From Phytoamicus setariae (GTDB taxonomy: Bacteria; Pseudomonadota; Alphaproteobacteria; Rhizobiales; Rhizobiaceae), in assembly GCF_016722925.1 (NCBI RefSeq), contig NZ_JAEQNC010000019.1, forward strand, positions 1-64,000: a DNA stretch of 64,000 nucleotides, written 5' to 3'. The position numbers and the translations under genes are program-made. Below are positions 35,297-51,888 of the stretch, one piece after another. How positions within the stretch are numbered: position 1 is the stretch's first letter; every line of letters starts with the position of its first letter. The notes under the pieces are model-generated. The model did no database searches. It saw nothing but the letters and a program-made list of their open reading frames with translations, and had not been told where the DNA came from.

Positions 35297-35364
35297 AAAA
35301 CGTTCTCACCGCATTTTCTCATATGCGACAACCCTCCCACTGAGGGCAGATCAGGAGGCACTGC

Positions 35365-37101
35365 ATGACCCTCGACCCGATCACGCTTTCGGTCATCCAG
35401 TCCGGCCTGCAGCAGGTCTGCGACGAGATGGACCTGTCGTTCTCGCGCGCCGCCTTCTCGCCCGTCATCGCCGAGGCCAACGACCGTTCGGACGGCATCT
35501 ATTCCGCCGTCGACGGGGCGCTGATCGCGCAAGGCTCGACCGGCCTGCCGGTCTTCGTCGGCACGATGCAATATTCCACCCGGGTGCTGATCGAGATGAT
35601 CGCCGCCGGCAAGGCAGCCGCCCCCAAGCCGGGCGACATCTACATCGTCAACGATCCCTATCTCGGCGGCACGCATCTGATGGATGTGCGCTTTGCCATG
35701 CCCGTCTATCGCAACGGCGAGATCTTCTGCTGGTTGTCCAACACCGGCCACTGGCCTGATACCGGCGGGGCGGTGCCGGGCGGCTTTTCGGCGTCGGCGA
35801 CCTCCGTCGAGCAGGAAGGGCTGCGCCTGCCTCCCGTGCGGCTGTTCAAGCAAGGCGTGCTCGACGACGAAATCTACGCCATCATCTGCTCCAATATCCG
35901 CGTGGCCGACCAGCGCATCGGCGACGTCAAGGCGCAGGCTGCGGCACTGCTGGTGGGTGAAAAGCGGCTGACGCGAATTCTCGACCGTTACGGCGACACC
36001 ACCGTCAAGGAAGCGATCGAGGAACTGCGCAAGCGGGCGAGCGCGCAGATGCGCGCCAACTGCAAGCTCATCCCCGATGGCACCTACAGGTCCATTGCCT
36101 ATGTCGACAGCGACGGGGTGGTCAACGAGCCGCTGGAAATCCGGCTGGCGATCCATGCCAAGGACGGCCTGCTCGATTTCGATTTCACCGGGTCGTCGAA
36201 ACCCTGCATCGGGCCGATGAATTCGGTGCTGGCGACGACCTTGTCTTCCGTCTATCTCGCCATGCGCCACATCTTCCCCGACGTGCCGATCAGCGCCGGG
36301 GCCTTCGAACCGCTCAGGGTCAAGCGCCCGGAAGGCACGTTTCTCGATGCGCAATATCCGCGCCCGGTGTCGGGCTGCGCCGCCGAGGTCAGCCAGCGGA
36401 TCGCCGAAGCGGTGTTTTCCGCGCTGGTCGAAGCCCTGCCCGACCGCGTCACGGCGGCTCCGGCGGGAAGCTCCGGCAATTTCGCGCTCGGCGGCCATGA
36501 CCCGGAGCGCAACCGCGGCTTCGTCATGTACCAGATTTCCGGCGGCGGTTATGGCGGCAATGCCGACCATGACGGGCTGGCCAACGGCTGCTCGACCATC
36601 GGCATTTCCAAGGCCCCGCCGGTGGAAATCATGGAGCAGCAATTTCCCGTGCTCTATCATCGCTATGCGCTGCGCGAAGGTTCCGGTGGCGCCGGCCGCC
36701 ATCGCGGCGGTTTTGGGCTGGATTACGAGGTCGAGCTTCGTCGCGGCGAGGCGACCGCGAGTTTCGTCATGGACCACGGCCGCTTCGGCCCGCCCGGCGC
36801 GCTCGGCGGCAAGGACGGCCAGCCGAACTCGGTGCGGATTTTCAAGGACGGCGAGACGATCGTGCCGGAACACCTCTCCAAGGCACAGGACATTCCGCTG
36901 AGACCCGGCGACCGGGTACGCGTCGGCACCCCCGGCGGCGGCGGCTATGGCGATCCGATGACGCGTGATCCCACGGCCGTAGCCGAGGATGTCCGGCTGG
37001 AACGCTATTCGGCTGAGGAGGCAAAGGCGCTGTTCGGGGTGGTGATCGGGGTCGATGGGACGGTGGATGAGACGGGGACGGAGGGGTTGCGGGGAAGGTA
37101 G
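35365..37101 (+). CDS. HyuB-type hydantoinase/5-oxoprolinase subunit
   Basis: Partner of HyuA, 578 residues, the usual length. Landmarks are the N-terminal DPITLSVIQSGLQQVCDEMD, SPVIAEANDRSDGIY, the GDIYIVNDPYLGGTHLMDV block, the FDFTGSSKPCIGPMNS segment and the glycine-rich SGGGYGGNADHDG. The C-terminus (GDRVRVGTPGGGGYGDP) is complete. A good ribosome site (AGGAGG) precedes the ATG. HyuA and HyuB together form the ATP-dependent ring-opening enzyme. Confidence 0.85.
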   Translation: MTLDPITLSVIQSGLQQVCDEMDLSFSRAAFSPVIAEANDRSDGIYSAVDGALIAQGSTGLPVFVGTMQYSTRVLIEMIAAGKAAAPKPGDIYIVNDPYLGGTHLMDVRFAMPVYRNGEIFCWLSNTGHWPDTGGAVPGGFSASATSVEQEGLRLPPVRLFKQGVLDDEIYAIICSNIRVADQRIGDVKAQAAALLVGEKRLTRILDRYGDTTVKEAIEELRKRASAQMRANCKLIPDGTYRSIAYVDSDGVVNEPLEIRLAIHAKDGLLDFDFTGSSKPCIGPMNSVLATTLSSVYLAMRHIFPDVPISAGAFEPLRVKRPEGTFLDAQYPRPVSGCAAEVSQRIAEAVFSALVEALPDRVTAAPAGSSGNFALGGHDPERNRGFVMYQISGGGYGGNADHDGLANGCSTIGISKAPPVEIMEQQFPVLYHRYALREGSGGAGRHRGGFGLDYEVELRRGEATASFVMDHGRFGPPGALGGKDGQPNSVRIFKDGETIVPEHLSKAQDIPLRPGDRVRVGTPGGGGYGDPMTRDPTAVAEDVRLERYSAEEAKALFGVVIGVDGTVDETGTEGLRGR

Positions 37102-37185
37102 CCCGATCAAGGATAATCGCAGCCGGAACAGCCCCTCCCCGCAAGGTCGGGGCGATCACCTATGAACCTGAGCGGTGGCAGCAAG

Positions 37186-37242
37186 CTCCCTCTTCTCCCC
37201 AGCGGGGAGAAGTGCCAAGCGGACGCGAGGTGATGAGGGGGA
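37186..37242. repeat. RIME-like palindromic unit, single copy
   Basis: CTCCCTCTTCTCCCC (37186-37200) continues with AGCGGGGAGAAGTGCCAAGC and ends TGATGAGGGGGA. It matches the second unit of the element between hyuA and hyuB, in the opposite orientation. It lies in the 265-base gap between hyuB and the cupin gene, where I see no other gene. Confidence 0.7.
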
Positions 37243-37366
37243 TCCGATGGCGGAACGGAGGCCATCGTAAGGGAGGTGGAGAGCGCGGGGAGGCGGGGGA
37301 GGAAGATTCCGGTATTGGGTGGAAAGCAGACTCTCGGCAGCAGCGCCGACAGCGTGCCCAGACGGA

Positions 37367-37756
37367 CTATGCGGGAGGCAAATCGAGGCCGTTCGGTAGT
37401 GAGATCCAGATGACAGTTTGCGCCTCTGCGGAATGGCGTGACAGATGGCCCTTGCCGTGTGTGTCCTCCACTAACACGAAGCTACCCGCCTGAACGTGGC
37501 GCACCTCTCCGTCACTCGTCTCGTATTCAACCGAACCATCCAGCCTGACCGTAAGCACCGGCTCCGGGACCGTATGCCAAGCAACCTCGCGCATGCCCGC
37601 CGGGATGCGGGAGAGGCGGACGCGGGACGCCTGATAACTGGCCGAAACCTCGAACGGCACGGCATCGGGGTGCACCGACCTCTTCGTCGTCGGCAACTCG
37701 ACTTCGTCGAAATGCGACTCGCCATCCGGGGTGGCATAGATGCGCAGGCACTTCAT
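37367..37756 (-). CDS. Cupin-domain protein
   Basis: Small single-cupin protein of 129 residues. The first cupin motif is degenerate (REVAWHTVPEPVLTVRLDGSVEYE) and the second reads VQAGSFVLVEDTHGKGHLSRH, keeping His residues that could bind a metal. The start MKCLRIYATPDG has AAGGAG nine bases upstream; an ATG nine codons earlier lacks a site. Role unknown; it lies between hyuB and kup, convergent with hyuB. Confidence 0.7.
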   Translation of the reverse strand: MKCLRIYATPDGESHFDEVELPTTKRSVHPDAVPFEVSASYQASRVRLSRIPAGMREVAWHTVPEPVLTVRLDGSVEYETSDGEVRHVQAGSFVLVEDTHGKGHLSRHSAEAQTVIWISLPNGLDLPPA

Positions 37757-38104
37757 TTCGGCTGACTCCTTCTGGTTCGCCATACTGAAACAAAACCATG
37801 CCTACCATGAAGGAAGCGGGTAACACCACGGGTCTGTTGCGAGAGTCCGGTGTGGGCGGATGCACGGCATGTCCAGCTAGTTTCTCAACGATTTCGGCCG
37901 GTAGAAGCCATTGAACTTGGAGTGGATTCAAATTCCGGGACATCGTTCGCCCTTCGCCCAGCGGGCCCAATGACGATCCTTATGGAATCTTTATATCGCA
38001 GCACCCGATGACACATAGAATTCTTATGCGATCTCGGATAGCGCACAGGTATATGCTTTGAAATGCGTCGTGCAAAACCGTGCGAAGCCTTCAGGGGAGA
38101 GCCT
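37757..38104. other. Intergenic region between the cupin and kup genes
   Basis: The 3' part (about 37970-38060) is clearly AT-rich compared with its surroundings (ATCCTTATGGAATCTTTATAT and nearby AATTCTTATGCG) and should hold the kup promoter. A frame on the complement strand that spans this gap and the cupin gene resembles nothing I know and is not called. Confidence 0.35.
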
Positions 38105-40012
38105 TTGACCGATAAAGCTTCCAGCGTTTACGGTGCTCGCCATATGTCGACGAAGGAACTGCTAACTCTTTCGCTTGGCTCAATCGGCGTGGTGTATGGC
38201 GACATCGGCACAAGTCCGCTCTACGCCTTTCGAGAAGCCTTGCGCCCCGTGGCATCTGACGGCATCGCTGATTTCGAGGTAATCGGCCTGGTGTCACTGA
38301 TGCTTTGGACGCTGACTGTCATCGTCACCATCAAGTATGTGTCTTTCTTGTTGAGGGCGGATAACAATGGCGAAGGCGGGACTCTCGCGCTGCTTGCGCT
38401 GCTATCCAAGCAAGTCGGCGAAAAACGCCGAGACTTCCTGCTGGCCCTGGGCCTGGTCGGGGCAGCCTTGTTCCTTGGCGATGCGATGATCACCCCAGCC
38501 CTGTCGATCCTCTCCGCTGTCGAAGGCTTGAAACTGGTCGCGCCTGACCTTTCGCAATTCGTCATCCCAATTTCGGTCGCAATCCTTGTTGCGCTGTTTG
38601 TCGTGCAAGCGAGGGGCACGGGGGCAGTGGCAAAAGCCTTCGGGCCGATCACACTTGTCTGGTTTATCGTCATGGCGCTGGGCGGCGTCATCCATATCTC
38701 AGACGACCTCAGCATTTTTGCCGCCATCAATCCGTGGCATGCCGTCTGGTTTGTGTTCCACGGCGGATGGGCGGGATTTGTGGTGCTTGGCGCGGTTTTC
38801 CTGACGGTGACCGGTGCGGAGGCCTTGTATGCCGATCTCGGACATTTCGGGCGTCGTTCAATTCAATGGGCGTGGTTCGTGGTCGTGTTTCCCGCTCTGA
38901 CGCTGAACTACCTTGGGCAAGGGGCATTCATTCTCAAGAACCCGGCAGCGGCAAGTGACCCGTTCTTCCTGATGTTTCCCAAGCTGGCGGTTCTGCCAGT
39001 CGTGATACTGGCGACAGCAGCCACGATCATCGCCAGTCAAGCGGTTATCACAGGGGCGTTTTCAATGACCCAGCAGGCCATGCACCTGGGCTTCCTGCCT
39101 CGAATGCAGGTGGACATCACATCGGCCGCGAATACCGGTCAGATTTACCTGCCGGGAATCAACAAAGTTCTGCTCTTCGGCGTCATGCTTCTGGTCCTGA
39201 TATTTCAGACGTCCGAATCCCTTGCGACTGCCTACGGAATTTCGGTGACGGGGGCTATGGTGGTCACCACCATCATGTTCTTCGATTTCCTCCGCTTTCA
39301 CAAAAGGTGGTCTACGACTGCGAGCCTGCTTGTCGTCCTCCCGCTCGTCGCGTTGGAGCTGGTTTTTCTTTCGTCCAATCTTCTCAAGATTCATGACGGT
39401 GGTTATGTCCCGATCCTGATAGCCGGATTGACCGTAGTCGTCATGTGGACATGGCGTCGGGGAGCTGCAATCCTCGTCGCGAAAGCAAAACGCGACCACA
39501 TTCCCCTGCAAGGCTTTATCGCGTCGATATCGCGCAAGGGTGCCCATGCGGTGAACCGCGTCCCCGGCACAGCGGTTTTTCTGACCTCGCGACCCGATGC
39601 CACTCCGCCGGCACTTCTTCACAATCTCAAGCACAACCACGCCCTGCATGAAGCAAACGTGATACTGACGGTGCGCACCGAGGATGTTCCGACAGTGCCG
39701 CCTGATGAACGCGGGCACTTCGAAGCTCTTTCCGACGGTTTTTCGATCGTAACGCTACGATTCGGCTTCATGGAAGAGCCGAATATCAATCAGGCATTGG
39801 GAGGACTGCGGAAAGAAGGTTTCAAGTTCGATATCATGACGACGTCTTTTTACCTCGGCCGCAGGAAAATCATCTCCGATCCGAATTCCGGCATGCCCGG
39901 ATGGCAGGACCGACTGTTCATCACAATGGCCTCCGCCGCTGCTGATCCGTCCGACTATTTCGAACTGCCCGCAAACCGTGTAGTCGAGATGGGTGCGCAA
40001 GTTTCTGTTTGA
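38105..40012 (+). CDS. kup: Kup-family low-affinity potassium transporter
   Basis: Inner-membrane K+/H+ symporter of about 635 residues. The N-terminal block [25 protein letters not shown] is the Kup signature, about twelve hydrophobic helices follow, and a cytoplasmic C-terminal domain of about 180 residues completes it ([28 protein letters not shown]). A TTG start is proposed because AGGGGAG lies four to five bases upstream; ATG codons at 38063 and 38144 are in frame too. It shows no functional tie to its neighbours. Confidence 0.9.
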
Positions 40013-40153
40013 GCGCCCCGCTTCCTTCACTTGCGGCCGAGCGTCGACAACGGGGAACGCCAAGACGCAAGCCAACGGGATTGCTGTGACACGCACAGGA
40101 ATGAGGGTGGTTCGGAGATTCCCAAGGTAAGCCGATCCATCCACATACAGAAA

Positions 40154-40181
40154 AGCCGGACCGACATTCGTCGACCCGGCT
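40154..40181 (-). terminator. Terminator of gcdH
   Basis: Read on the complement strand, AGCCGG-GTCGAC, a GAAT loop and GTCGGT-CCGGCT form a 12-base stem with two G-U pairs, followed by TTTTC. It lies 25 bases beyond the gcdH stop and matches a rho-independent terminator. Confidence 0.8.
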
Positions 40182-40205
40182 CCATAATTTACCCGGCTAA
40201 TTCTC

Positions 40206-41393
40206 TCAGAAGAACGCCTGAATACCCGTCTGCGCCCGACCCAGGATCAGCGCGTGGACGTCGTGGGTGCCCTCGTAGGTGTTGACCGTTTCGAGGTTCT
40301 GCGCGTGGCGCATGACGTGGTATTCGACCTGGATGCCGTTGCCGCCGTGCATGTCGCGGGCCTGGCGGGCGATGTCGAGCGCCTTGCCGCAATTGTTGCG
40401 CTTCATGATCGAGATCATTTCCGGCGCGAACTTGTGCTCGTCCATCAGGCGGCCGACGCGAAGCGAGCCCTGCAGGCCAAGCGTGATTTCCGTCTGCATG
40501 TCGGCGAGCTTCTTCTGGAACAGCTGGGTGCCGGCGAGCGGCTTGCCGAACTGGATGCGGTCGAGGCCGTACTGGCGGGCACGGAACCAGCAATCCTCGG
40601 CCGCGCCGAGCACGCCCCAGGAAATGCCGTAGCGGGCGCGGTTGAGGCAGCCGAACGGGCCGGCAAGACCGGAGACACCCGGCAGCAGCGCATCTTCGCC
40701 GACTTCGACACCGTCCATGACGATTTCGCCGGTGATCGAGGCGCGCAGCGACAGCTTGCCGCCGATCTTCGGTGCCGAAAGACCCTTCATGCCCTTTTCG
40801 AGGATGAAGCCGCGGATCTTGCCGTCATGCGCTTCGGACTTTGCCCAGACGATGAACACGTCGGCGATCGGGGCATTGGAGATCCACATCTTGGAGCCGC
40901 GCAGGCGATAACCGCCCTCAATTTTTTCCGCGCGGGTCTTCATGCCACCCGGATCGGAACCGGCATCCGGCTCGGTCAGGCCGAAGCAGCCGATCAGCTC
41001 GCCGGAAACGAGGCCGGGAAGATACTTGTCCTTCTGCTCTTCCGAGCCATAGGCATAGATCGGGTACATGACAAGCGAGGACTGCACGCTCATCATCGAA
41101 CGGTAGCCGCTATCGATGCGCTCGACTTCGCGGGCGACGAGGCCGTAGGCGACGTAATTGGCATTGGCCGCGCCGTACTTTTCCGGCAGCGTCACGCCGA
41201 GCAGGCCGGCCTTGCCCATGGCACGGAAGAGTTCCGGATCGGTGTGCTCGTTGAGATAGGCTTCGTTGACGCGCGGCAGCAGCTCGGCTTCGGCGAAGGC
41301 TGCGGCGGAATCGCGGATCATCCGCTCTTCTTCGGAAAGCTGGTCATCCAGCAGGAAGGGGTCGTTCCAGGTAAAGGGGGCTGGCTTGCTCAC
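40206..41393 (-). CDS. gcdH: Glutaryl-CoA dehydrogenase
   Basis: Flavoprotein that oxidises and decarboxylates glutaryl-CoA to crotonyl-CoA, passing electrons to ETF. The 395-residue protein matches GcdH throughout: an N-terminal [68 protein letters not shown] and the C-terminal [20 protein letters not shown] with the catalytic Glu. It is divergent from a LysR regulator, the normal gcdH arrangement. It serves lysine and tryptophan breakdown, and could also take glutarate produced by a ring-reducing nicotinate route (inference from neighbourhood). Confidence 0.95.
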
Positions 41394-41463
41394 AGGGCGG
41401 CTCCTCTAGAAAAAAATCTGCTGAACTTATGGACCCGTCCCGCTGTCGAGACAAACCATATTT

Positions 41464-41481
41464 ACTCATAGAGATATGAGT
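41464..41481. promoter_or_regulatory. Palindromic operator between gcdH and its LysR regulator
   Basis: ACTCATA (41464-41470) and TATGAGT (41475-41481) are a perfect 7-base inverted repeat around GAGA, in an AT-rich patch between the two divergent starts. The size and position fit a LysR-type binding site. Confidence 0.55.
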
Positions 41482-41495
41482 TATAGTAATAGCGC

Positions 41496-42428
41496 ATGAC
41501 ATCCATGCAACGCCGACTGCTTCCCTCCACCAGCGCCCTGACCGCCTTCGACGCGGTGGCGCGAACCGGCAGCTTTTCGGCTGCAGCGCAAGAACTGTCG
41601 CTGACGCAGGGCGCGATCAGCCGCCAGATCGCGCTGCTCGAAGAGCAGCTCGGCGCAAAACTGTTCGACCGCAACAGCCGCGGCGTGACGCTGACCGATA
41701 CCGGGCGGGTCTATGCGGCGGGCATTGCGGAGGTGATCCACAAGATCCGGACGCTGTCCTTCGAAGCCATGGCGGCGGGCCGCGAAAACGCGCTCAGCCT
41801 CGCCATCCCGCCGACCTTCGGCACCCGTTGGCTGATGCCGCGCATCCCGGGCTTCGTCAAGGCCAACCCGAACATCATCATCAATTTTGCCACCCGCATC
41901 GGCCGGGTCGATTTCGAGGCCGAGGGGCTGGACGCGGCAATCCATATCGGACGTCCCGACTGGCCGGATGCCGATTGCAAGCTGATGATGCATGAAATGG
42001 TCGCACCGGTGTGCAGCCCGGATTTCCTCAAAACCCACCCGGTCGCCCGGCCCGAGCGGCTGCTGTCGCTGCCGCTGATCGAGATGGCCTCGCGGCCGGG
42101 CGCCTGGGAACATTGGTTCGCCAGTCTTTCCATCGAGGCCAGGCTTTCGGGGGGCATGCGCTTCGAGCAATTCTCGAATGTCGCCCAGGCCTGCATCGCA
42201 GGGTTGGGTGTGGCGCTCATGCCATTATTTCTGATCACATCGGAGCTGCAGATCGGCCGGCTGGTGCTTGCCTATGACCACCCGGTGCAGAGCCTCAGCG
42301 CCTATTATCTGGTGCGGCCGCAACGCAAGGTCAGCTACCCCCCGGTCGTAGCCTTCTCCGAATGGCTGATGGCCGAGGTCGCCACCTTCGAGAGCGAAGC
42401 CGCAGGCGACAGCGTCATCGCCTGGTAG
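41496..42428 (+). CDS. LysR-family regulator (GcvA-like), likely regulator of gcdH
   Basis: Transcription factor of 310 residues. The N-terminal helix-turn-helix is FDAVARTGSFSAAAQELSLTQGAISRQIALLEEQLGAKLF (about 18-58), followed by a GcvA-type effector domain (GTRWLMPRIPGF ... GLGVALMP). Its position, divergent from gcdH with a shared palindrome, is that of the GcdR regulators, which respond to glutarate or glutaryl-CoA in other proteobacteria. An ATG three codons later is an alternative start. Confidence 0.9.
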   Translation: MTSMQRRLLPSTSALTAFDAVARTGSFSAAAQELSLTQGAISRQIALLEEQLGAKLFDRNSRGVTLTDTGRVYAAGIAEVIHKIRTLSFEAMAAGRENALSLAIPPTFGTRWLMPRIPGFVKANPNIIINFATRIGRVDFEAEGLDAAIHIGRPDWPDADCKLMMHEMVAPVCSPDFLKTHPVARPERLLSLPLIEMASRPGAWEHWFASLSIEARLSGGMRFEQFSNVAQACIAGLGVALMPLFLITSELQIGRLVLAYDHPVQSLSAYYLVRPQRKVSYPPVVAFSEWLMAEVATFESEAAGDSVIAW

Positions 42429-42433
42429 GCGGT

Positions 42434-43267
42434 TCAGCTCCCGGCATCGATCGCGCATCGATATTCGATGATGGCGCGTGGGATTTCCGCCGCATAGTCC
42501 GCCGCCGACAGTGTCGCGCGCTTCGCGTCGAGGTGGTCGATCAGCGATGTCGCGACGATGACGCCATCGGCAACTGCGGCGACACCCGCGGCCATTTCCG
42601 GTGTCTTGACCCCGAAACCCACCATGACAGGCAGCTTCGAGACGGCCCGGCAGCGCTCCACCGCCTCACCGATCGCTTCGAGCGAGGCAGACGGACCGCC
42701 GGTGGGGCCAACCACCGGGATGCAATAGAGAAACCCGCCGATGCCGGGTTTTTCGACGGCGAAATCTTCGGGAGCCAGCGTCGGTGCGGCAAGCGGGACC
42801 ATCACCAAGCCATGCCTTGCAAGCGCATCCAGCAGGCTGTCCGCCTCGCGGATGGGGAAATCTGCGGCAATGATGCCGTCCACGCCGGCCTTGGCGGCAC
42901 GTTCGGCAAAGGCCTCGTAGCCCATCGCCAGCAACGGATTGCTGTATCCCATCAGGATCACAGGCGTGACATCGTCGTGTTCGCGGAACGCCGCGACAAG
43001 CTCCAGCGTTCGCGAAAGATTGCCGCCGGCGGCCAGTCCGCGCCGGTTGGCCTTCTGGATCGTCGCGCCGTCAAGGATCGGATCAGAATAGGGATGGCCG
43101 AGTTCGATCAGGTCGATACCTGCAGCGGCAAAGGCGTTGAGCCGTTCCAGGCTTTCGGCGAAAGACGGATCGGAGGCGACGGTGTAGGTGACGAACGCCT
43201 TTCGACCCTCGCCCTTGAGCCGCGCGAACATCGCATCGATGCGCGGCACCTGCATTTTTCTTGCCAT
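42434..43267 (-). CDS. TrpA-like (tryptophan synthase alpha family) protein 1
   Basis: TIM-barrel protein of 277 residues with clear TrpA descent. Both catalytic acids of TrpA are in place: Glu55 in LIELGHPYSDP and Asp66 in ILDGATIQ, equal to Glu49 and Asp60 of Salmonella. MGYSNPLLAMG and the phosphate-site blocks (VVGPTGG, MVGFGVKTPEM) are also recognisable. It is the last gene of a seven-gene unit that carries a sugar transporter and a sugar kinase and no tryptophan-pathway gene (no trpF, trpD, trpC), so housekeeping tryptophan synthesis is unlikely. A retro-aldol cleavage of a sugar-derived phosphate is a possibility. The ATG follows GGAGGA; the gene starts two bases after the TrpB-like stop. 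Confidence 0.87.
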   Translation of the reverse strand: MARKMQVPRIDAMFARLKGEGRKAFVTYTVASDPSFAESLERLNAFAAAGIDLIELGHPYSDPILDGATIQKANRRGLAAGGNLSRTLELVAAFREHDDVTPVILMGYSNPLLAMGYEAFAERAAKAGVDGIIAADFPIREADSLLDALARHGLVMVPLAAPTLAPEDFAVEKPGIGGFLYCIPVVGPTGGPSASLEAIGEAVERCRAVSKLPVMVGFGVKTPEMAAGVAAVADGVIVATSLIDHLDAKRATLSAADYAAEIPRAIIEYRCAIDAGS

Positions 43268-43269
43268 GA

Positions 43270-44469
43270 TCAATCCTCCGGCCAGACGATATCGAGGTCC
43301 TTGTCGCCCGAGGACGGGACCATGACGACCACCACGTCAGCGGGGCTGAGATCGCCGGCGATCGTTTCGGCGGCCGCAACCGCATGGCCCGCTTCGAGCG
43401 ACACGAGGATGCCTTCACGGACAGCAAGTCGCCGGACTGCGTCACGCGCGGCCGCATCGGTGATGGACACCGTTTCGGCGCGGCCGGAGGCCACTAGGTT
43501 GGCGATCTCAGGCGCGGAACCGGGATAGGCAAGGCCCGGCGCAATCGAATCCGTCGGCAGGATCTGGCCGTCCACGTCGCAAAGCACCAGCGTCTCGGCT
43601 CCATGAAAGATGCCACGGCGCCCGTTGGCGAGCCGCGCGGAATGGGCGGCGCCCTTCTGACCTGAACCGCCGGCCTCGACCGCCACCAGCCGGATCTGCG
43701 GATCGTTGACGAAGGCCGAGAAGATGCCGATGGTCGATGAGCCGCCCCCCACTGCAGAGACGACGGCCGCCGGCAGCATGCCGGCCTCGATCATCTGAAG
43801 GCGGGTTTCGCGGCCGATCACGGCCTGGAATGCCCCAACCATCTGCGGATAGGGGTGCGCGCCAATTGGAGCACCGGCCACATAGGCCGTGGTGGCGCTG
43901 AACCCCATCCAGTGGCGGATGGCTGCGGAGGTTGCGGCATGCAGGGTGCGGTCGGCATCCTCGACCACTCTCAGATCGGCACCGAAGGCGCGCATCTTCT
44001 TGACCGCTGCCGATTGCTGGGCAGCGTCCCTGGCGCCCATGTAGATCGTGCAGGGCATGGAAAAGCGCGCGGCGACCGCTGCGGTGGCGATGCCGTTCTG
44101 GCCCGATCCGGTGTCGGTGACGACGCTGGATAGCCCCATGCGACGCGCGAGCAGGCACTGGCCCAATGCGGAATTGGCATAGTTGCCGCCGTTGAAGGTC
44201 AGGTCGTCGCGCTTGAGGAAAATGCGCGCGCCGCGTTCGGACTCGATCAAGGCGCTGGTTTCGGAGATCGGCGTGGGGCGACCGACGAACCGTTGCAGCA
44301 GATTGTCGAAGGTCGCGCGGAATGCCGGATCGGCCCAGGCGTCGTTGAAGGCGCTCTCCAGCCGGTCGAGCACCGGCAGCAGCACCGGGGCGACATATTG
44401 CCCGCCGAAGACGCCATAGCGTCCGGGCCGGGTTTGGGTCGCTGTCAGGTTCTGGATGCCCATGCTCAC
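43270..44469 (-). CDS. TrpB-like protein lacking the PLP lysine
   Basis: Tryptophan synthase beta-family protein of 399 residues that aligns along its whole length with TrpB but lacks its catalytic residues. The PLP-binding motif HKTNQ/HKINN reads NYANS, so Lys87 (Salmonella numbering) is Tyr97. Glu109 becomes Asp119 and His115 becomes Asn125 (TDTGSGQNG). The phosphate loop GGGSNA reads GGGSST (241-246), and Ser377 becomes Pro385 (PSSGDKD). Glu350 is kept as Glu359. The frame is intact and translationally coupled (GTGA) to the permease before it, so it is a maintained protein with a changed role: non-PLP catalysis, a partner or regulator of the TrpA-like protein, or a binding protein. An ATG two codons later could be the start. 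Confidence 0.88.
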   Translation of the reverse strand: MSMGIQNLTATQTRPGRYGVFGGQYVAPVLLPVLDRLESAFNDAWADPAFRATFDNLLQRFVGRPTPISETSALIESERGARIFLKRDDLTFNGGNYANSALGQCLLARRMGLSSVVTDTGSGQNGIATAAVAARFSMPCTIYMGARDAAQQSAAVKKMRAFGADLRVVEDADRTLHAATSAAIRHWMGFSATTAYVAGAPIGAHPYPQMVGAFQAVIGRETRLQMIEAGMLPAAVVSAVGGGSSTIGIFSAFVNDPQIRLVAVEAGGSGQKGAAHSARLANGRRGIFHGAETLVLCDVDGQILPTDSIAPGLAYPGSAPEIANLVASGRAETVSITDAAARDAVRRLAVREGILVSLEAGHAVAAAETIAGDLSPADVVVVMVPSSGDKDLDIVWPED

Positions 44470-45395
44470 GCGCCCTTGCCGATGCGGCGGACAAGAACCG
44501 CAGCCAGGATGATCGCGCCGGTGATGATGTCCTGCAGGAAGGTCGAAACGCCGAGGATGGTCAGGCCGTTGCCGATGACGGCAATAATCCCGGCCCCGAC
44601 CAGCGTGCCCGGCACATTTGCTTCACCTTCACGGAACGCGGTCATGCCGAGAAAGACGGCCGCATAGGCGGAGAGGAGATAGCCACCACCGCCGGTCGGG
44701 CTGGCGCTGCCGATACGGCCCGTCAGCAACATGCCGACCAGCGCCGCGAGCATGGCGCACAGGATGAAGGCAACCATGGTGTTGGGCACGATGCGCACGC
44801 CAGCCAGCCGCGAGGCTTCGCGGTTGCCGCCGATGGCATAGAGACGGCGGCCGAATTCCACCTTGTCGAGCAGCAGCCAGACGACGATGGCGACGCCGAT
44901 CAGCCACCAGGTGAGCGTCGGGATGCCCAGCGCGTGGCCACGGGCGAGGTCACGAAAACCGGCTGGGATATCGCCAAACAGCGTTGCGCCATCCGAAAGC
45001 CAGAAGGTCACACCGCCGATGATCGTACCGGCCGCAAGCGTTGCGATGAAAGAGAGCACTTCGAACTTGGCGACGATGTAGCCGGAGACCGCGCCGAAGC
45101 AACCAGCAGCGGCAAGCACGATCAGGCAGGCAAGCGGCGTGGGAACACCGAGCTTGAAGAGAAAGACGATGAAAATACCGCCGAAGGACACCAGTGCGGC
45201 CGTCGAAAGATCGAACTCGCCGACGGCCATGACCATCGTCGCGCCGATCGCGACGATGGCGAGCAGTGCCATCTGCTGGGTGATGTTGATGAGGTTGCTT
45301 GCCGTGCCGAATGCGCCGGGGGAGGCAATGGAGAAGGCGACGATGATCACAATCAGCGCGATCAGCGTGCCGTATTGTCTGGCGAGGCCGGTCAT
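44466..45395 (-). CDS. Sugar ABC transporter permease (RbsC type) of the trp-like operon
   Basis: Inner-membrane subunit of 309 residues with about ten hydrophobic helices. The BPD_transp_2 hallmark is MVMAVGEFDLSTAALVSFGG, and the C-terminal AVFLGMTAFREGEANVPGT block is family-typical. Only one permease is encoded, so a homodimer is expected. Its start overlaps the ATPase stop and its stop overlaps the TrpB-like start, both by four bases. Confidence 0.92.
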   Translation of the reverse strand: MTGLARQYGTLIALIVIIVAFSIASPGAFGTASNLINITQQMALLAIVAIGATMVMAVGEFDLSTAALVSFGGIFIVFLFKLGVPTPLACLIVLAAAGCFGAVSGYIVAKFEVLSFIATLAAGTIIGGVTFWLSDGATLFGDIPAGFRDLARGHALGIPTLTWWLIGVAIVVWLLLDKVEFGRRLYAIGGNREASRLAGVRIVPNTMVAFILCAMLAALVGMLLTGRIGSASPTGGGGYLLSAYAAVFLGMTAFREGEANVPGTLVGAGIIAVIGNGLTILGVSTFLQDIITGAIILAAVLVRRIGKGA

Positions 45396-46906
45396 GCAAG
45401 GGACTCTTTCTGTTCAGGATGGTGGAAGGCGGCAGCGACGATGCGCTGCGGCGACAGTTCGTCGCCCGAAAGCTCCGAAGTGAATTCGCCATTGGCGAGA
45501 ACCAGGACGCGGTTCGAAAGCGCCAGCAACTCGTCCATGTCGCTGGTGGTCATCAGGACGGCGACGCCCTCCGATGCCAGCCGCCGGACGATGGCATGGA
45601 TTTCTTCCTTGGCGCCGACATCGACGCCGCGCGACGGTTCGTCGAGGATCAACAGGCGGATCTTGCCGCCGAACCAGCGGCCGAACAGCAGCTTCTGCTG
45701 ATTGCCGCCTGACAACGTCAGGGGATGCGCCCAGGGCGAGCCCATCTTGATCGACAGCTGCTGCTTGATGTCTGCGGTGCGGGCAGCCAGCCCGCTGCGG
45801 CTCGTCAATGGCAGCCCGGATGACGAGCGAACCGACTTCAGATTGGTGATCGCGAGGTTTTCGGCGATGCTACGAGCGGTGATCAGCCCCTCGCCGCGCC
45901 GGTCCTCGGGTACATAGGCGCCGCCGGCGGCGATCCGCGCACCGATGTCGCCAGAGCGCATGGATGCGCCATCGATGAAAACCGTTCCTCCTTCGCTGGT
46001 CCGCGAACCCCACAGAACCTTCATGAAGGAGGAACGGCCGGCGCCGACAAGACCATAGAGACCCACGATCTCGCCTTCACGCACACTGAGCGAGACCTTG
46101 GAGCCGCGTCGGCCGAAGGGCAGGTCTCTGACTTCGAGCACCGGCTTGCCGCCGGCGACAGGCGCAGCCCGGCCGCCCCGGATTTCTTCATGCCCGGACA
46201 TCAGCCGGACGAGATCGGCTCGGTTCACATCGGCGATCGCCCCCGTTCCGGTGGTGGCGCCGTTGCGCAACACGGTGTAGCGGTCGCAGATATCGAGCAC
46301 CTCGTCGAGGCGATGGGAGATGAAGATGACGGCAACGCCGCGCGCCGCAAGCGCCCTGACGGCCTGATGCAGACGGCGCGCCTCGCCATCCGAAAGCGAT
46401 GCGGTCGGCTCGTCCATGACGACCAGCCGTGCCGGCTCGTTCATCAGCGCGCGGATGATTTCCACAAGCTGCTTCTGACCCGTCGTCATGCGGCCGACGG
46501 GAATGTCGAGCGGCAGATCGGGGGCTATGTCCCGCGCCGTTGCCGCGACCTTGGCTCGCATCGCTGCGCGATCCACGAACAGCCCGCGCTTTGGATAGGG
46601 GCGGCCGACAAAGGCGTTCTCGACCGCCGTGAAATGCGGCACCAGGCTGAGTTCCTGATGAATGAACCGGAAGCCGAGATCCTCGGCGTGACGGACGCTC
46701 GTTATGATCTCCGCCTTACCGTCTATGCGGATCTCGCCGGCATCAGGACTGACCAGACCGGACAGGGACTTGATCAGCGTCGACTTGCCGGCGCCGTTTT
46801 CGCCCAGAAGGCCGTGCACCGAGCCCGCTTCGACGGCAAGGTCGGCGCCCGCAAGCGCACGCGCGCCACTGAAGCGCTTTTCGAGTGCACGGATTTCCAG
46901 AAGCAT
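45392..46906 (-). CDS. Sugar ABC transporter ATPase (RbsA/MglA type) of the trp-like operon
   Basis: Duplicated ATPase of 504 residues. Domain 1 has Walker A GENGAGKSTLIK, a signature-like MTTGQKQLVE and Walker B RLVVMDEPTASL. Domain 2 has the family's altered Walker A (GLYGLVGAGRSSFMKVLWG), signature LSGGNQQKLLFGRW and Walker B LLILDEPSRGVD. All parts look functional for this subclass. It follows the binding-protein gene after 24 bases. Confidence 0.93.
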   Translation of the reverse strand: MLLEIRALEKRFSGARALAGADLAVEAGSVHGLLGENGAGKSTLIKSLSGLVSPDAGEIRIDGKAEIITSVRHAEDLGFRFIHQELSLVPHFTAVENAFVGRPYPKRGLFVDRAAMRAKVAATARDIAPDLPLDIPVGRMTTGQKQLVEIIRALMNEPARLVVMDEPTASLSDGEARRLHQAVRALAARGVAVIFISHRLDEVLDICDRYTVLRNGATTGTGAIADVNRADLVRLMSGHEEIRGGRAAPVAGGKPVLEVRDLPFGRRGSKVSLSVREGEIVGLYGLVGAGRSSFMKVLWGSRTSEGGTVFIDGASMRSGDIGARIAAGGAYVPEDRRGEGLITARSIAENLAITNLKSVRSSSGLPLTSRSGLAARTADIKQQLSIKMGSPWAHPLTLSGGNQQKLLFGRWFGGKIRLLILDEPSRGVDVGAKEEIHAIVRRLASEGVAVLMTTSDMDELLALSNRVLVLANGEFTSELSGDELSPQRIVAAAFHHPEQKESLA

Positions 46907-46930
46907 CGTTTCGTTCCTTGCCTCAGGCGG

Positions 46931-47845
46931 TTAGTTGCAGGTCACGCCGAGGGATTCAGGTGTGACAGTGACGGCGGGAACATAGAGTTCGTCCTTGTCG
47001 GCCTTGCCGCCCGCAAGAATTTTTTCCAGCTGCTCTGCGCCAACAGTTGCCATTTTGGGGAAGTCCTGACGGAGCGTCGCCTTGTAGTGGGTGCAGGACT
47101 TGATCATGTCGACCGCCTGCGCATTGCCGTCGATGCCCATGATGACGAGCTTGGAATCCGGCTTTTCGGATTCGGTCGCCAGCTCGGCACCGATGCCCGG
47201 ATCGTCGAAGGCTGCCCAGACGCCATCGATGGCATCGCCATGCTGGCGCAGGATGTTTTCCATGGCGATACGGCCGTCATCGACCGGGCCCGGCACCTTG
47301 ACGAAATGATCGGCAATGATCTTCACGTCGGGGTACTTCTTCAGAACTTCGTCGAGGCCGAGTTCGCGCTGATGCACGCCCGGATGAGCCGAGTGATAGA
47401 ACTTGACGATGTTGCCCTTGCCGCCGATCGACTTGATCAGTTCCTCGGAGAGCTGCACGCCCAGATCGAAATTGTTGGAGGTGACGTTGACGGCGACGTC
47501 GGCATTCTTGGCGCCGTCCAGCGAGATCACCGGAATGCCGGCCTTGTGGGCCAGCGCGACCTGGTCCTGCACCTGGGCCGGATCGGTCGAGATCAGCACG
47601 ATTGCCGAAGCCTTGGCATTGACAGTGTCTTCGATGCGCGAGGCGAGCTGGCCGAAATCGTTGCGGGTATCGATGATGGTCACGTTCCAGCCACGCTTTT
47701 CGCCCTCGGCCTTGAAGCTCTGCGCCATCTCGTTGGTCGGGATCGAGCTGATATAGGGGGTGAGGATCGACACATCGGTCGCCCATGCGGATGCCGCCGA
47801 CGACAGCAAGGTGGCGAGCGCCACCGAAATCATTGAAAGTCTCAT
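46931..47845 (-). CDS. Sugar ABC transporter periplasmic binding protein of the trp-like operon
   Basis: Solute-binding protein of the Peripla_BP_4 family, 304 residues. A signal peptide ends near AASAWA before TDVSILTPY. Ligand-site blocks include VLISTDPAQVQDQVALAHKAG, ISLDGAKNADVAVNV and the FDDPGIG segment. The chosen ATG has GAGGAGCAGG upstream. The ligand should be a sugar or polyol phosphorylated by the kinase encoded next to it. Confidence 0.92.
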   Translation of the reverse strand: MRLSMISVALATLLSSAASAWATDVSILTPYISSIPTNEMAQSFKAEGEKRGWNVTIIDTRNDFGQLASRIEDTVNAKASAIVLISTDPAQVQDQVALAHKAGIPVISLDGAKNADVAVNVTSNNFDLGVQLSEELIKSIGGKGNIVKFYHSAHPGVHQRELGLDEVLKKYPDVKIIADHFVKVPGPVDDGRIAMENILRQHGDAIDGVWAAFDDPGIGAELATESEKPDSKLVIMGIDGNAQAVDMIKSCTHYKATLRQDFPKMATVGAEQLEKILAGGKADKDELYVPAVTVTPESLGVTCN

Positions 47846-47872
47846 TTTCCTGCTCCTCAACTGGATGTGACG

Positions 47873-49360
47873 TTACATGTTGTTTTCGTGGACCAGCCCG
47901 TCCGTGCGGATCAGGCCGATGGGGCGCAGCGCGTCGATTGCCTTGCGATAGGCGTCGAACATCGCGTCATAGCGGGGTGTCATTGTCGCATCGGGCTCGA
48001 AGATGCGCTCGACGCTGGTCATTGCGGGAACCGCTTCGGCAATCGTGGCAAATTGTCCGATACCGACTGCCGCCATGATCGCCGCACCGAGGCAGCCGAC
48101 ATCGGCAAAGGCGAAGCGATGCAGCGGAATGCCCAGGCAATCGGCGCGGATCTGGCTCCAGAGATCGGAGCGCGAGCCGCCGCCGCCATAGAGCAGCCTG
48201 TCGGGCCGGTAACCGGCGGCCGTCGTCAGCGAACCGAGCAGATGACGGGCCGAAAGCGCCACACCTTCCAGCACGGCAAGCGCCAATTCCGGTCCTGCGG
48301 TACGGCTGTCGAGGCCGATGAAGGCCCCACGAATCTCTGAATCCCAAAGCGGCGCGCGTTCGCCTTCGAGCTGCGGCAGAAACAGGATCGGCCGGTCGTG
48401 GCGATCGGCTTTCTCGGCGAGCCTGGGGACATCAAGCGGATCCACGCCATTCGCCTTGCCCCACCAACGCAGCGAATCGCCGCCGCTCTGGGTCGGACCG
48501 GCATTGACCACCAGCCCATCGACCGTCGGGAAGGTGACGACGCCGGGCGCGCCGATGCGGTTGGAGCCGGCCAGCGCCAGGATCTCGCTGGTACCGCTGA
48601 CATACATGCCCTGCCCCGGACGGAACACGCCGCAGCCGAACAGGTTGCCCCAGGCATCCATGGTGCCGGTGACGACGGGCACCATGCGGCCGGACGAACC
48701 GAGCCGCATTTCGCCCGCGACATCAGTCATTGCGCGCAGCTGTGGCAGCCGCTCGGCAGCGCCCGGCACGCGCGCGATCAAATCCGTTACATACGCATGA
48801 TCGAGGGTGACATGGCCGAAAGCCGAAATGGGGTCGGCCACCGCATTGCCCGTGAGGTGGAAGAGACAGAAGTCCTTGGGCGAAAACACATAGGCCGTTT
48901 TTGCCCAGAGATCCGGATGGTTTTGTGTGAACCAGGCCATCTTGGCAAGCACGTGGCTCGCACCGATGGGCATTTCAGCACCCCACCACGCCTGTTTGTC
49001 TCCAGCGGTGATTTTTGCATCGATGGCGGCCGCGGCAGCGCCGGCGCGCACATCCTGCCAGACGATCGCAGGCGCCAGCGGCTTGCCGGATGCATCGACG
49101 AAGACATCGGTATTGACCTGGCTGCAGATGCCCACGGCGGATATCGAGGCAGGGTCACGCCCGGCCAACAGCGCGTCGATCGCATCGCGGATGCCATCAA
49201 GCCAATGCTGCGGGTCCTGCTCGACCAGACCGGGGCCCGGCCGTTCGGTCGGATAGGCACGGCCCCAGTGATCGATGACCGTGCCATCGATAGAGAACAG
49301 CCCCGCCTTGACCGAGGTCGTGCCGATGTCAAAACCGATGATCAAGCCGCCCTCAGCCAT
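47873..49360 (-). CDS. FGGY-family carbohydrate kinase (xylulokinase-like)
   Basis: ATP-dependent sugar or polyol kinase of 495 residues. The N-terminal phosphate loop is GFDIGTTSVKAG, the FGGY region reads LEGERAPLWDSEIRGAFIGL, and the adenosine motif is YGGGGSRSDLWSQI. It resembles xylulokinases most, but FGGY specificity cannot be read off. The start overlaps the end of the second TrpA-like gene by eight bases. The kinase product, a sugar phosphate, is the likely starting material for the TrpA-like proteins. Confidence 0.9.
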   Translation of the reverse strand: MAEGGLIIGFDIGTTSVKAGLFSIDGTVIDHWGRAYPTERPGPGLVEQDPQHWLDGIRDAIDALLAGRDPASISAVGICSQVNTDVFVDASGKPLAPAIVWQDVRAGAAAAAIDAKITAGDKQAWWGAEMPIGASHVLAKMAWFTQNHPDLWAKTAYVFSPKDFCLFHLTGNAVADPISAFGHVTLDHAYVTDLIARVPGAAERLPQLRAMTDVAGEMRLGSSGRMVPVVTGTMDAWGNLFGCGVFRPGQGMYVSGTSEILALAGSNRIGAPGVVTFPTVDGLVVNAGPTQSGGDSLRWWGKANGVDPLDVPRLAEKADRHDRPILFLPQLEGERAPLWDSEIRGAFIGLDSRTAGPELALAVLEGVALSARHLLGSLTTAAGYRPDRLLYGGGGSRSDLWSQIRADCLGIPLHRFAFADVGCLGAAIMAAVGIGQFATIAEAVPAMTSVERIFEPDATMTPRYDAMFDAYRKAIDALRPIGLIRTDGLVHENNM

Positions 49361-50126
49361 CGAGACCCCTCCGCAAATCCCGAAGCAGGGACGTCAGTCT
49401 TTGCCGCCCTTCGAGCGCGGCACGCAGCACTTCGGAGCCAACCACGATACCATCGGCGCCCAGATCGATGGCGGCGCGCGCCTGCTCACCATTGGAAATA
49501 CCGAAGCCGAGCAGGATCGGCGCTTCGACGCCCGCCTGGCGCAGCGTCTCGATGCGTGCCCGACCCCCGGCATCGACGGTATCGCGCGGGCCGGTGACGC
49601 CTTCGGCGGCCTGCAACATCACATAATAGTCCGCAGCCTTTGCCGCCTCGATTTCGCGGGAAGTGATCGGCAGCGGTGTAAAGGCGGAGACGGCAACCCT
49701 TTCGGCACGGGCAGCCGCCTCAAGCTCGAGGCGGATTTCATCGTCGGTGGGCGCGACAATCAAAAGCCCATCGAGACCGGACCAGACATCCGGATTGGAA
49801 CGGGCTGGATGGGCCGCATCGGCATAGGTCATCAGCAATGCTGCGGGCCGTTGCGCCTGCCGGTCGAGACGCTCGCGAATTCCGTCGAGATCGCGCCGGG
49901 CATTGCTGCGATCGGCGCGTGCCATCGAGCCGCGCACATCCGGACCGTCGAGATAGGGATCGGGCGAAGAAAGGCCGAGTTCGACGACATCGACGCCCTC
50001 GCCTGCATAGATGTCGAGAAGATCGACCGGCACCCTGGGGTCGCCGACTGGGAAATAGCACGTCAGCCACGGCCGCGACGCTGTCGCGCTCGTACCCTTC
50101 AGCTGTCTGTCCGTTGTCAATTGCAT
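49353..50126 (-). CDS. TrpA-like protein 2, first gene of the operon
   Basis: A second, shorter and more diverged TrpA-family barrel, 257 residues. The catalytic acids are at exactly the Salmonella positions: Glu49 in VVELGLSSPDP and Asp60 in YLDGPDV. The phosphate region is recognisable (GFGISNGEQARAAIDLGADGIVVGSEV). The usual MGYYNP block reads LLMTYADAAHP. Presence of two alpha-like proteins with both acids kept suggests two related aldol-type steps, or two partners for the beta-like protein. GTGGAG precedes the ATG. Confidence 0.85.
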   Translation of the reverse strand: MQLTTDRQLKGTSATASRPWLTCYFPVGDPRVPVDLLDIYAGEGVDVVELGLSSPDPYLDGPDVRGSMARADRSNARRDLDGIRERLDRQAQRPAALLMTYADAAHPARSNPDVWSGLDGLLIVAPTDDEIRLELEAAARAERVAVSAFTPLPITSREIEAAKAADYYVMLQAAEGVTGPRDTVDAGGRARIETLRQAGVEAPILLGFGISNGEQARAAIDLGADGIVVGSEVLRAALEGRQRLTSLLRDLRRGLDG

Positions 50127-50260
50127 GCGTCACTCCACGGCGCCGTCCTCCTGGCGCCCACAGATCTCGCATGCAGTGTTAATGAGCCGTCATGAAACTG
50201 TCATCCGGGGAAAGGCCCGGCAAAATCGAATTCTGCAGGATGTGGATAGCGCCCGACCGA

Positions 50261-51226
50261 TCAGTGCGTCCCGGCGGAATCTTGCGAGGGCAGGACGCCA
50301 AAGACATCGCGATAGGTGGCGGAAAACCGCCCGAGATGGCGGATTCCGACGTTGCGGGCCGCCTCTGCCGCCGACAGCCCCGCGTGGCGCATCAGCCGGC
50401 GGGCATTCTCCATGCGGATGCGAGTGAGGATGTCATAGGGGGAGCGCTGGTAATAGCGCTGGAACCCTTCGTAGAGCGCACGCTCCGAAATGCCGATCTC
50501 GCGGGCGACCGCCGGCATCATCAGCCGCTCGCCGTAGCGCGTCTTGAAGAGATCGATGGCAAGCTTGACCTGCCGCGGCGTCGCGTGCAGGCGCTCGGGA
50601 ACGATCGAACTGCCTTGCCGGTAGGCGATGTTCTGCAGCAATTCATCGATCAATGCGGGGACGACCGCTTCCAGATCTTCCTGCGCTGCAATTTCGGGAT
50701 CGGCAAGCGCTTCGGCAAGACCAGAAAAGGCCGTCCTGATGTAGCGCCCATGTTCGGTGTTCAGGTCGATCACGGGGTTGAAGATCGGGTGGCTGGCATT
50801 GGGCCGGCGCGCCAGCGCCGCAAACCGGTCCTCCAGCGCCTGCCGGTCGATCTGCAGCATCATCTGGCGGGTGCCGGCCCGCCAGCGCGACACAAAGCGC
50901 GGCCCCGGCGACAGCAGCAGCGCGATACCAGTGCCCGATTGCACCGTCTCGGCACCGAAATGAATATCGACACCGCCTTCGATGGGCATTTCGAGCATGT
51001 AGAAATTCTCGAAGCTCGAGGCGATGGAGACCTCTTCGCCATATTGCAGCAGGTTGAAGCCGGATCGGTCGAGCGCCAGTGAGGCATGACGGAAGTCAAG
51101 CGCCGCGCGGTTCGGGCCCGGCTCCAGATGGTGGTCGCAATAAGAGTTCGACAGGTGCGCTTCGGCGTCGGCAAACTCGGTCGAGTTCGTCTGGCGTATC
51201 CTTTGATGTGCCTGTTCCACGCTCAA
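50261..51226 (-). CDS. AraC-family transcriptional regulator
   Basis: Regulator of about 321 residues placed 134 bases upstream of the trp-like/sugar operon on the same strand. The N-terminal part resembles the AraC-binding-like (cupin) domain (MLEMPIEGGVDIHFG). Two C-terminal helix-turn-helix motifs are visible: LMMPAVAREIGISERALYEGFQRYYQRSPYDIL and LSAAEAARNVGIRHLGRFSATYRDVFGVLPS. A TTG start was chosen because GGAGG lies seven bases upstream; the frame stays open to 51298. It is the prime candidate to control the operon. Confidence 0.88.
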   Translation of the reverse strand: MSVEQAHQRIRQTNSTEFADAEAHLSNSYCDHHLEPGPNRAALDFRHASLALDRSGFNLLQYGEEVSIASSFENFYMLEMPIEGGVDIHFGAETVQSGTGIALLLSPGPRFVSRWRAGTRQMMLQIDRQALEDRFAALARRPNASHPIFNPVIDLNTEHGRYIRTAFSGLAEALADPEIAAQEDLEAVVPALIDELLQNIAYRQGSSIVPERLHATPRQVKLAIDLFKTRYGERLMMPAVAREIGISERALYEGFQRYYQRSPYDILTRIRMENARRLMRHAGLSAAEAARNVGIRHLGRFSATYRDVFGVLPSQDSAGTH

Positions 51227-51407
51227 TACCGCCCCTCCGGAAGCGGGCGAAGTATTTCCTATGCCCCGCCGCCGCGCAAGTCCCCCGGGCTGCGACAAAC
51301 AAATCGCAAGATATTTCGGCCGGGGGTGTCGGGATATGGCCCGCGCGAGCGTCCTAGGTTTAGCCGTCGCGAAACGGCGGACAGATCAACCGGAGAGGAG
51401 ACGTAAA

Positions 51408-51833: not shown

Positions 51834-51849
51834 CACACGACCCGAAGAA

Positions 51850-51876: not shown

Positions 51877-51888
51877 CATGCCTGCTTC

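Follow-up and report, generated by a model that had tools for sequence, protein, structure and literature searches.

A conserved TrpB paralogue lacking the PLP lysine, encoded with TrpA paralogues in an import-and-kinase operon of Phytoamicus setariae

The window analyzed here, a 64,000-nucleotide stretch of a Phytoamicus setariae contig, encodes a homologue of the tryptophan synthase beta subunit (TrpB) in which the lysine that binds pyridoxal phosphate (PLP) is replaced by a tyrosine. The best explanation for this protein, TrpB-Y, to which we give a probability of about 0.5, is that it serves as a PLP-free partner that activates the adjacent TrpA paralogue, TrpA1, as a C-C lyase within an import-and-kinase operon. 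The basis for this reading is the conservation of TrpB-Y, its operon, the loss of the lysine, the intact catalytic acids of TrpA1 and the repeated linkage of trp genes to similar cassettes; from sequence and context we infer complex formation, the absence of PLP, the substrate and the activation of TrpA1. The relevant features of the window are as follows.

42434..43273, minus strand: TrpA1, a TrpA paralogue keeping Glu49 and Asp60, with a 4-base overlap with TrpB-Y
43270..44469, minus strand: TrpB-Y, a TrpB homologue of 399 aa with a GTG start, Tyr97 replacing the PLP lysine
44164..44196, minus strand: former Schiff-base segment, residues 92-102 (FNGGNYANSAL), codons placed from the reading frame
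44179-44181, minus strand: Tyr97 codon of TrpB-Y, from the reading frame
44466..45395, minus strand: CUT2-type ABC permease, by profile matches
45392..46906, minus strand: ABC transporter ATP-binding protein with two matched ATPase stretches, by profile matches
46931..47860, minus strand: periplasmic binding protein of ribose-binding type with Phe218 at a position that is Asn in the aligned PDB relatives, by profile and PDB alignment
47873..49360, minus strand: kinase of the FGGY family, closest to the NCBIfam xylulokinase model, below the cut-off of every model
49353..50126, minus strand: TrpA2, a divergent TrpA paralogue that matches maize BX1 best in the PDB
50261..51298, minus strand: AraC-family regulator, first gene of the row, by profile match

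The TrpB-Y frame runs from the GTG at 44469 to a stop at 43270 in 399 codons without an internal stop, and overlaps the permease gene at its 5' end and the TrpA1 gene at its 3' end by 4 bases each, as the original prediction of an intact frame with a four-base upstream overlap had described. Full-length homology to TrpB, also predicted, was recovered over residues 16-395 in profile and PDB searches. TIGR00263 scored 419 bits (E 1.5e-125), exceeding the NCBI trpB cut-off of 392, and the top PDB match had an E of 3.7e-107, while the TrpB2 model TIGR01415 gave 112 bits against a cut-off of 519, which excludes membership. A structure predicted from a 55-sequence alignment had a mean pLDDT of 91.3 (an earlier model from 18 close sequences, at 65.5, was too poor for use), and the 50 PDB matches listed for it are TrpB chains with TM scores of 0.91-0.97. 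The genome also holds a normal trpB outside the operon, in a row recognized by eye as trpF-trpB-trpA-accD-folC; this gene and the lost catalytic residues led us to reject the view that TrpB-Y is an ordinary second trpB. Elsewhere in the window, a 1464-codon open frame on the minus strand (32716-37110) lies antisense to a 578-codon plus-strand frame (35365-37101) and is probably a by-product of high GC.

A scan of genome contigs returned 67 confirmed TrpB relatives, 18 of them 66-81% identical to TrpB-Y and the other 49 at 45% or below. The motif FNGGNYANSA[LV]GQ is present in all 18 orthologues and the window (19/19) and lysine in none, so that the count of lysine-keeping orthologues, on which the original prediction had staked itself, stands at 0/18. 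The orthologue records bear the names Rhizobium, Shinella, Mesorhizobium, Martelella, Devosia, Phaeobacter, Pacificibacter and Marinicella sp. W31, with others from an Ancalomicrobiaceae MAG, a Rhizobiaceae MAG and a 'Rhizobiales bacterium'. In the family sample 4/199 genomes, our own included, pass E 1e-115; the three other matches are identical to L035, L040 and L045 in the final 370 residues, and the set stays at 19. Only our genome and G282 (70% identity) stand out among the 297 genomes of the order sample, where the next match is at most 46% identical; the G282 match is L043 (same contig) and no extra orthologue. In samples of the class (385 genomes) and the phylum (398 genomes) the own genome alone passed E 1e-115, and a wide spread was rejected on this basis, as was spread on plasmids, where 0/103 records with a TrpB match reach 60% identity.

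In a FastTree phylogeny of 100 sequences the TrpB-Y clade (18 tips, without L036) was monophyletic with a support of 1.0. Under midpoint rooting its stem measures 1.1 substitutions per site, and the mean depth of the clade is shallower, 0.41. Values of dN/dS (NG86, finite for 198/231 pairs) lay between 0.027 and 0.168 in the 15 lowest-dN pairs, which contain repeats and represent 12 different comparisons. Selection on TrpB-Y, as read from these alignments, is purifying, and the value near 1 that had been named as the mark of a decaying gene was absent.

The Lys87 position (Salmonella numbering, anchored on Lys87 and slipping by one near the C-terminus) is Tyr97 or its equivalent in 19/19 members of the clade and Lys in 76/76 ordinary TrpB sequences; chance substitution is therefore excluded. 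The ordinary set was chosen from 78 loci tried by the motif G[AS]GQHG, so that His115 and its loop are invariant there by design of the set, and the roles attached to the compared residues are those we take them to have. The other predicted replacements were all present in the alignment: Glu109 is Asp119 in the window and Asp in all of the 19 but one, which has Glu; His115 is Asn125, GGGSN has become GGGSS, and Ser377 is Pro within a Pro-Ser-Ser that replaces Ser377-Gly378-Arg379. Asn236 is Ser245. Further changes beyond those named earlier are His82 to Phe, His86 to Asn96, Asn90 to Ser and Asp305 to Ala314, the last being Ala or Ser in 19/19. Additionally, the Lys167 position holds Ser, His or Asn in 18/18 sequences and Arg141 is retained in 11/18; Asp305, Lys167 and Arg141 are presumably positions of alpha-beta signaling.

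We then considered 32 positions that we take to contact PLP or substrate in 18 TrpB-Y sequences. Twenty-six of the 32 are invariant, and the mean entropy of the 32 is 0.12 versus 0.68 for equally large random sets, with no value as low in 10,000 draws. The same positions are also conserved in ordinary TrpB (entropy 0.20) and include glycine-rich loops that would be conserved for the fold alone, so the new residues that have become fixed carry more weight. Half of the positions (16/32) differ from what ordinary TrpB most often has there; 10 of these 16 are fixed in at least 75/76 ordinary sequences, and 12 have adopted one new state that is fixed in 18/18 TrpB-Y. The variable positions are the former 305, 377 and 379, together with 109, 114 and 235 in one sequence each. 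The GGG of the phosphate cup is kept in 18/18 and Ser235 in 17/18, as are Thr110, Gly111 and Gly113 (18/18) and Gln114 (17/18). On this comparison the pocket is best described as a preserved site of a new kind, from which the positions presumed to serve the PLP ring and the salt bridge have been released. The stretches of TrpB-Y that we take to face the alpha subunit are more conserved than the rest (mean entropy 0.38 vs 0.78).

TrpA1 directly follows TrpB-Y in 18/18 orthologous loci, in the order of trpBA, with spacing from an 8-base overlap to 5 bases apart in 17 loci (L033 was left out, its TrpA1 start having been called too far upstream). Kinase, binding protein, ATPase and permease lie upstream in 17/17 loci that reach far enough, with L036, whose locus the contig end truncates, omitted. 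The operon begins with an AraC gene in all of these 17 except L039, where none was found, and TrpA2 is present in 11/17, being absent from L033, L034, L037, L046, L054 and L058. Protein distances covary across 17 sequences (TrpB-Y vs kinase, r 0.89; vs TrpA1, 0.80; vs AraC, 0.93 with fewer pairs), as for a unit that is inherited together. The kinase has both FGGY_N and FGGY_C domains and reaches no equivalog cut-off. Split frames were observed in two loci: in Marinicella sp. W31 (L051, about 5043-9050) kinase and ATPase extend over several frames, and in L058 (about 7538-9225) the ATPase extends over two, with TrpB-Y and TrpA1 whole in both; these are either sequencing errors or decay of the importer. 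Profile searches detected no known indole-degrading enzyme among the operon genes. No common downstream gene that might name the pathway emerged from gene calls by codon use, which vary in length and strand across most loci, those of L037, L046 and L054 being alike. A consensus scan of 49900-51500 found no promoter or terminator at the operon head, and base composition shows no break at the operon (GC 0.56-0.65 in 2 kb steps over 36000-56000).

The two TrpA paralogues differ in what they retain. TrpA1 passes the TIGR00262 cut-off of 102 with 200 bits, while TrpA2 misses it with 86, and Glu49 and Asp60 are kept in both (TrpA1 19/19, TrpA2 12/12). TrpA1 retains Asp56, Pro57, Asn104, Pro132 and Gly181, which we take to face the beta subunit, as well as Tyr102, Tyr175 and Phe212, presumably of the indole site, in 19/19; the 19 ordinary TrpA sequences compared were chosen by their loop-2 motif, and the positions within it are fixed there by design of the set. 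TrpA2 has Asn104 in 0/12 (Asp or Glu instead), Pro132 in 3/12 and Met at 175 in 12/12. The loss of presumed beta-facing residues is as expected of a form that would stand alone, and the top PDB match of TrpA2 is maize BX1 (E 7e-23). A TrpA2 query against the genomes of L046, L034 and L033, which have TrpA1 and TrpB-Y and whose completeness is unstated, returned nothing above 32% identity.

Related cassettes in other genomes, whose surroundings were read with a codon-use gene finder and blastp, place the operon in a wider setting. Counting our own genome, the binding protein has matches in 9/198 family genomes, TrpA2 in 6/198 and the kinase in 20/297 genomes. In G405, G360, G1214 and G1267, TrpA2 sits in the cassette without TrpB-Y or TrpA1. 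Genome searches found neither of the two elsewhere in G405 and G360, and in G1214 and G1267 a normal trpB was the only trpB found; the kinase of the G405 cassette is 75% identical to that of the operon. TrpA2 alone and TrpA1 with TrpB-Y thus seem to be alternative solutions to a single lyase step, although some genomes have both, and for this reason TrpB-Y most likely serves TrpA1.

Other cassettes carry normal trp genes. A normal trpBA adjoins the cassette in G404, G349 and G473, where the kinase is 45-46% identical and a second trpB lies elsewhere in each genome; the linked trpB keeps the Lys, Glu109, His115 and GGGSN, with Cys for Ser377. Normal trpB and trpA also stand beside a cassette with another FGGY kinase (28%) in G427 and G362. 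In G335 a normal trpB adjoins such a cassette (28%) and the contig stops after it; trpA was not found in this genome, both of whose trpB loci lie near contig ends. The second trpB of G427 and G335 lies beside a trpF-like gene, accompanied in G427 by accD- and folC-like genes (trpF-like gene recognized by eye). The linked trpB of G362 is the only one found in its genome, and its adjacency to the cassette may be mere location. In G358, listed with 6% contamination, the importer and a 30% kinase lie at one place and an additional and a usual trpBA at two others. The kinase subfamily of G427, G335, G362 and G358 is 28-30% identical to ours and lacks the SQVN and GTMDAW motifs. The extra normal trpBA of G358 occurs with an AraC and a GntR-like gene, far from the importer, and the cassette of this genome has a transposase-like gene, recognized by eye, between permease and ATPase; L149 4703-8857 and L123 3404-10347 cover these two places. 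Three records of Nitratireductor plasmids match the sister binding protein at 90-97%, and on pOM-1 and the OXR-85 plasmid a normal trpB-trpA, AraC, FGGY kinase, CUT2 importer and GntR are grouped (L150 4024-13073; L151 4035-7631 with L152 116-5674). A gene for a LysE-family translocator follows trpA there.

Eight of the 14 cassettes with a 43-47% kinase (L174, L175, L176, L177, L178, L183, L185 and L186) have no trp gene in the stretch read, one of them, that of G387, being cut by a contig end. The chance of the observed trpB linkage is about 2e-4 for 3/14 and about 2e-6 for 3/4, rough values that assume a density of two trpB loci in every 5 Mb, count linkage within 10 kb and ignore shared ancestry, G404 and G473 belonging to one genus and G427 and G335 likewise to one. 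What is new here is that sister cassettes carry normal and often extra trpBA, or TrpA2 alone, though 8/14 of one type carry neither. From this linkage we conclude that parts of tryptophan synthase have been recruited repeatedly, and this in turn suggests that what the kinase makes is a substrate of the TrpA type, with indole-3-glycerol phosphate as one possibility.

The binding protein bears on the nature of the cargo. Asp89, Asp215 and Gln235, presumed ligand-site residues of ribose-binding protein, are kept in 39/39 rows of cassette binding proteins (37 distinct, as L187 repeats L122 and L173 seems to repeat L097). The position of Asn190, to which we assign a similar role, is Phe or Trp in all 39 and Asn in 5/5 aligned PDB chains, two of them near-identical; PDB chains alone served for this comparison, as the loci themselves contain no further CUT2 binding protein to use as a control. 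The Arg141 position is His/Tyr/Arg, Arg or Gln according to group, and this variation, like the two kinase subfamilies, speaks against a single shared cargo. With Phe or Trp at the Asn190 position and normal trpBA in some related cassettes, the imported compound may be an aryl-glycerol and not a plain sugar. Since TrpA1 keeps its aromatic site and other cassettes have recruited normal trpBA, indole-3-glycerol, which E. coli trp mutants excrete, is the simplest guess. The earlier description of a sugar transport operon thus holds for the type of importer and kinase and is less secure for the cargo, given the Phe/Trp and the trpBA cassettes.

Under the reading we prefer, a duplicated trpB-trpA pair would have joined an import-and-kinase operon and become TrpB-Y and TrpA1. 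The importer would take up a compound bearing a polyol, the FGGY kinase would phosphorylate it, and TrpA1 would split the product in a retro-aldol type of reaction to glyceraldehyde 3-phosphate and an aglycone; in the favored case, indole-3-glycerol would give indole-3-glycerol phosphate and then indole. TrpB-Y would form no PLP Schiff base and make no amino acid. Instead it would act as a partner of the beta type, activating TrpA1 and using its rebuilt pocket to receive or release the aglycone. Such a role is supported by the invariable adjacency of TrpA1 (18/18), the presumed beta-facing residues of TrpA1 kept in 19/19, the conserved alpha-facing stretches of TrpB-Y, the trpBA beside cassettes of two kinase subfamilies and, by analogy, a plant TSB-like pseudoenzyme discussed below. 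Against it, the pocket is not drifting, whereas a pure scaffold need not conserve one; Asp305 and Lys167 are lost and Arg141 persists in only 11/18; 8/14 cassettes with a 43-47% kinase lack a trp gene in the stretch read; the trpBA-linked G427, G335 and G362 use another FGGY subfamily, so a shared substrate is not assured; G362 has a single trpB, trpA was not found in G335, and the operon has no indole-degrading enzyme.

Because the pocket is nearly invariant, a PLP-independent reaction catalyzed by TrpB-Y itself stays a serious rival, though we hold it to be the less probable of the two. Tyr97 or Asp119 would then provide acid-base catalysis, acting either on a fragment freed by TrpA1 or on the phosphorylated substrate, in a site rebuilt from Phe92, Asn96, Tyr97, Ser100, Asp119, Ser122, Asn125 and Ser245. 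The 12 newly fixed positions among the 16 changed would follow naturally, the phosphate cup and the Thr110-Gln114 loop could still hold a phosphate or carboxylate ligand, and a long stem above a shallower clade is as after a change of function. However, TrpB-Y is absent where TrpA2 stands alone (G405), so its step, if any, is dispensable there, and no enzyme of this kind with this fold was met in the literature surveyed, where it was not sought as such. The same largely retained cup and carboxylate loop would also suit a ligand-gated regulator, in which PLP, serine or a sugar phosphate held non-covalently switches TrpA1 on or off, much as the binding of serine to ordinary TrpB is signaled to TrpA; the loss of Asp305 and Lys167, with Arg141 in 11/18 only, makes this improbable. 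As tentative as the PLP-free enzyme is a broader proposal, in which this fold-type II protein, its pocket rebuilt, has become either an enzyme that works without PLP or a ligand-gated activator and acts with TrpA1 in an undescribed aryl-glycerol pathway, while the sister trpBA cassettes convert the same compound to tryptophan. The pathway attached to it, import of indole-3-glycerol or another aryl-glycerol, phosphorylation by the new kinase and then cleavage, is doubtful to the same degree when taken jointly with it.

A further question concerns the cargo and can overlap with any of these explanations. A ketose or polyol might be phosphorylated and cleaved by TrpA1 as a sugar aldolase, with TrpB-Y as scaffold or helper. 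The sugar/polyol type of importer and kinase agrees with this, as do Asp89, Asp215 and Gln235 in every family row of the binding protein; the indole-site residues of TrpA1 kept in 19/19, the Phe/Trp at the Asn190 position and the cassettes with normal trpBA, hard to explain for a plain sugar, weigh the other way, and we regard a non-indolic cargo as possible without favoring it. Decay of the gene after duplication would account for the lost catalytic residues, but we reject it as exceedingly improbable on the low dN/dS, the single new motif in 19/19 and the adjoining TrpA1 and cassette. The original prediction of a changed chemistry or a structural or regulatory role is therefore supported by a conserved, lysine-less clade under purifying dN/dS, and between the two the evidence leans toward a partner of TrpA1.

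Compared with canonical TrpB1 (TIGR00263), TrpB-Y has the same predicted fold, aligns along its full length at 40-46% identity and shares the glycine-rich phosphate cup and the B-then-A gene order, but Lys, His86, Glu109, His115, Asn236, Asp305 and the Ser377/Arg379 region are replaced. Tryptophan synthesis by TrpB-Y would not be expected from this set of residues. TrpB2 and TrpB-like PLP enzymes (TIGR01415) are homologous in fold, with TrpB-Y far under their score cut-off. The nearest precedent is the TSB-like pseudoenzyme of core eudicots, which is reported to activate TSA for indole release and is recognized by two changes, of Glu to Ala (or Ser/Pro) and of Asp, at the Asp305 position, to Glu (PMC12727527). 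Both proteins are TrpB paralogues that appear not to synthesize tryptophan, with the action of TrpB-Y on a TrpA-type lyase only presumed. At the two marker sites TrpB-Y has Asp/Glu and Ala/Ser, which differs from the plant pattern. TrpB-Y itself has no Lys, while the sections consulted name no Lys change for the plant protein (PMC12727527). Unlike the plant protein as described there, TrpB-Y has a dedicated TrpA next door, and it appears to go beyond it in that the Lys is lost and a new pocket is fixed.

Maize BX1, a stand-alone indole-3-glycerol phosphate lyase, suggests by analogy how TrpA2 could act alone, although TrpA2 departs from the TrpA family in its score under the model cut-off and in Met at the Tyr175 position. 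Operons with a CUT2 importer and an FGGY kinase serve ribose, xylitol, threitol and AI-2. The TrpB-Y operon likewise combines ribose-type ABC import with an FGGY kinase, but has TrpA-type proteins where an aldolase, isomerase or dehydrogenase is expected, and an altered binding-protein pocket. Neither a bacterial Lys-less TrpB nor an indole-glycerol importer or kinase was found in the literature searched, a weak absence as most subscription journals lie outside that search.

TrpB, a standard example of a PLP enzyme, is heavily used in work on allostery and directed evolution. TrpB-Y also represents an annotation trap, as it clears the NCBI trpB equivalog cut-off although the PLP lysine is gone, and pipelines relying on TIGR00263 could label it tryptophan synthase beta. 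A natural Lys-less clade with a fixed new pocket makes it possible to test directly how a PLP enzyme acquires a new use and which features TrpB needs in order to drive TrpA. Should the guess at the substrate be true, the operon would reveal a route for uptake and salvage or breakdown of indole-3-glycerol, with a kinase and an importer for this compound that are absent from the literature searched.
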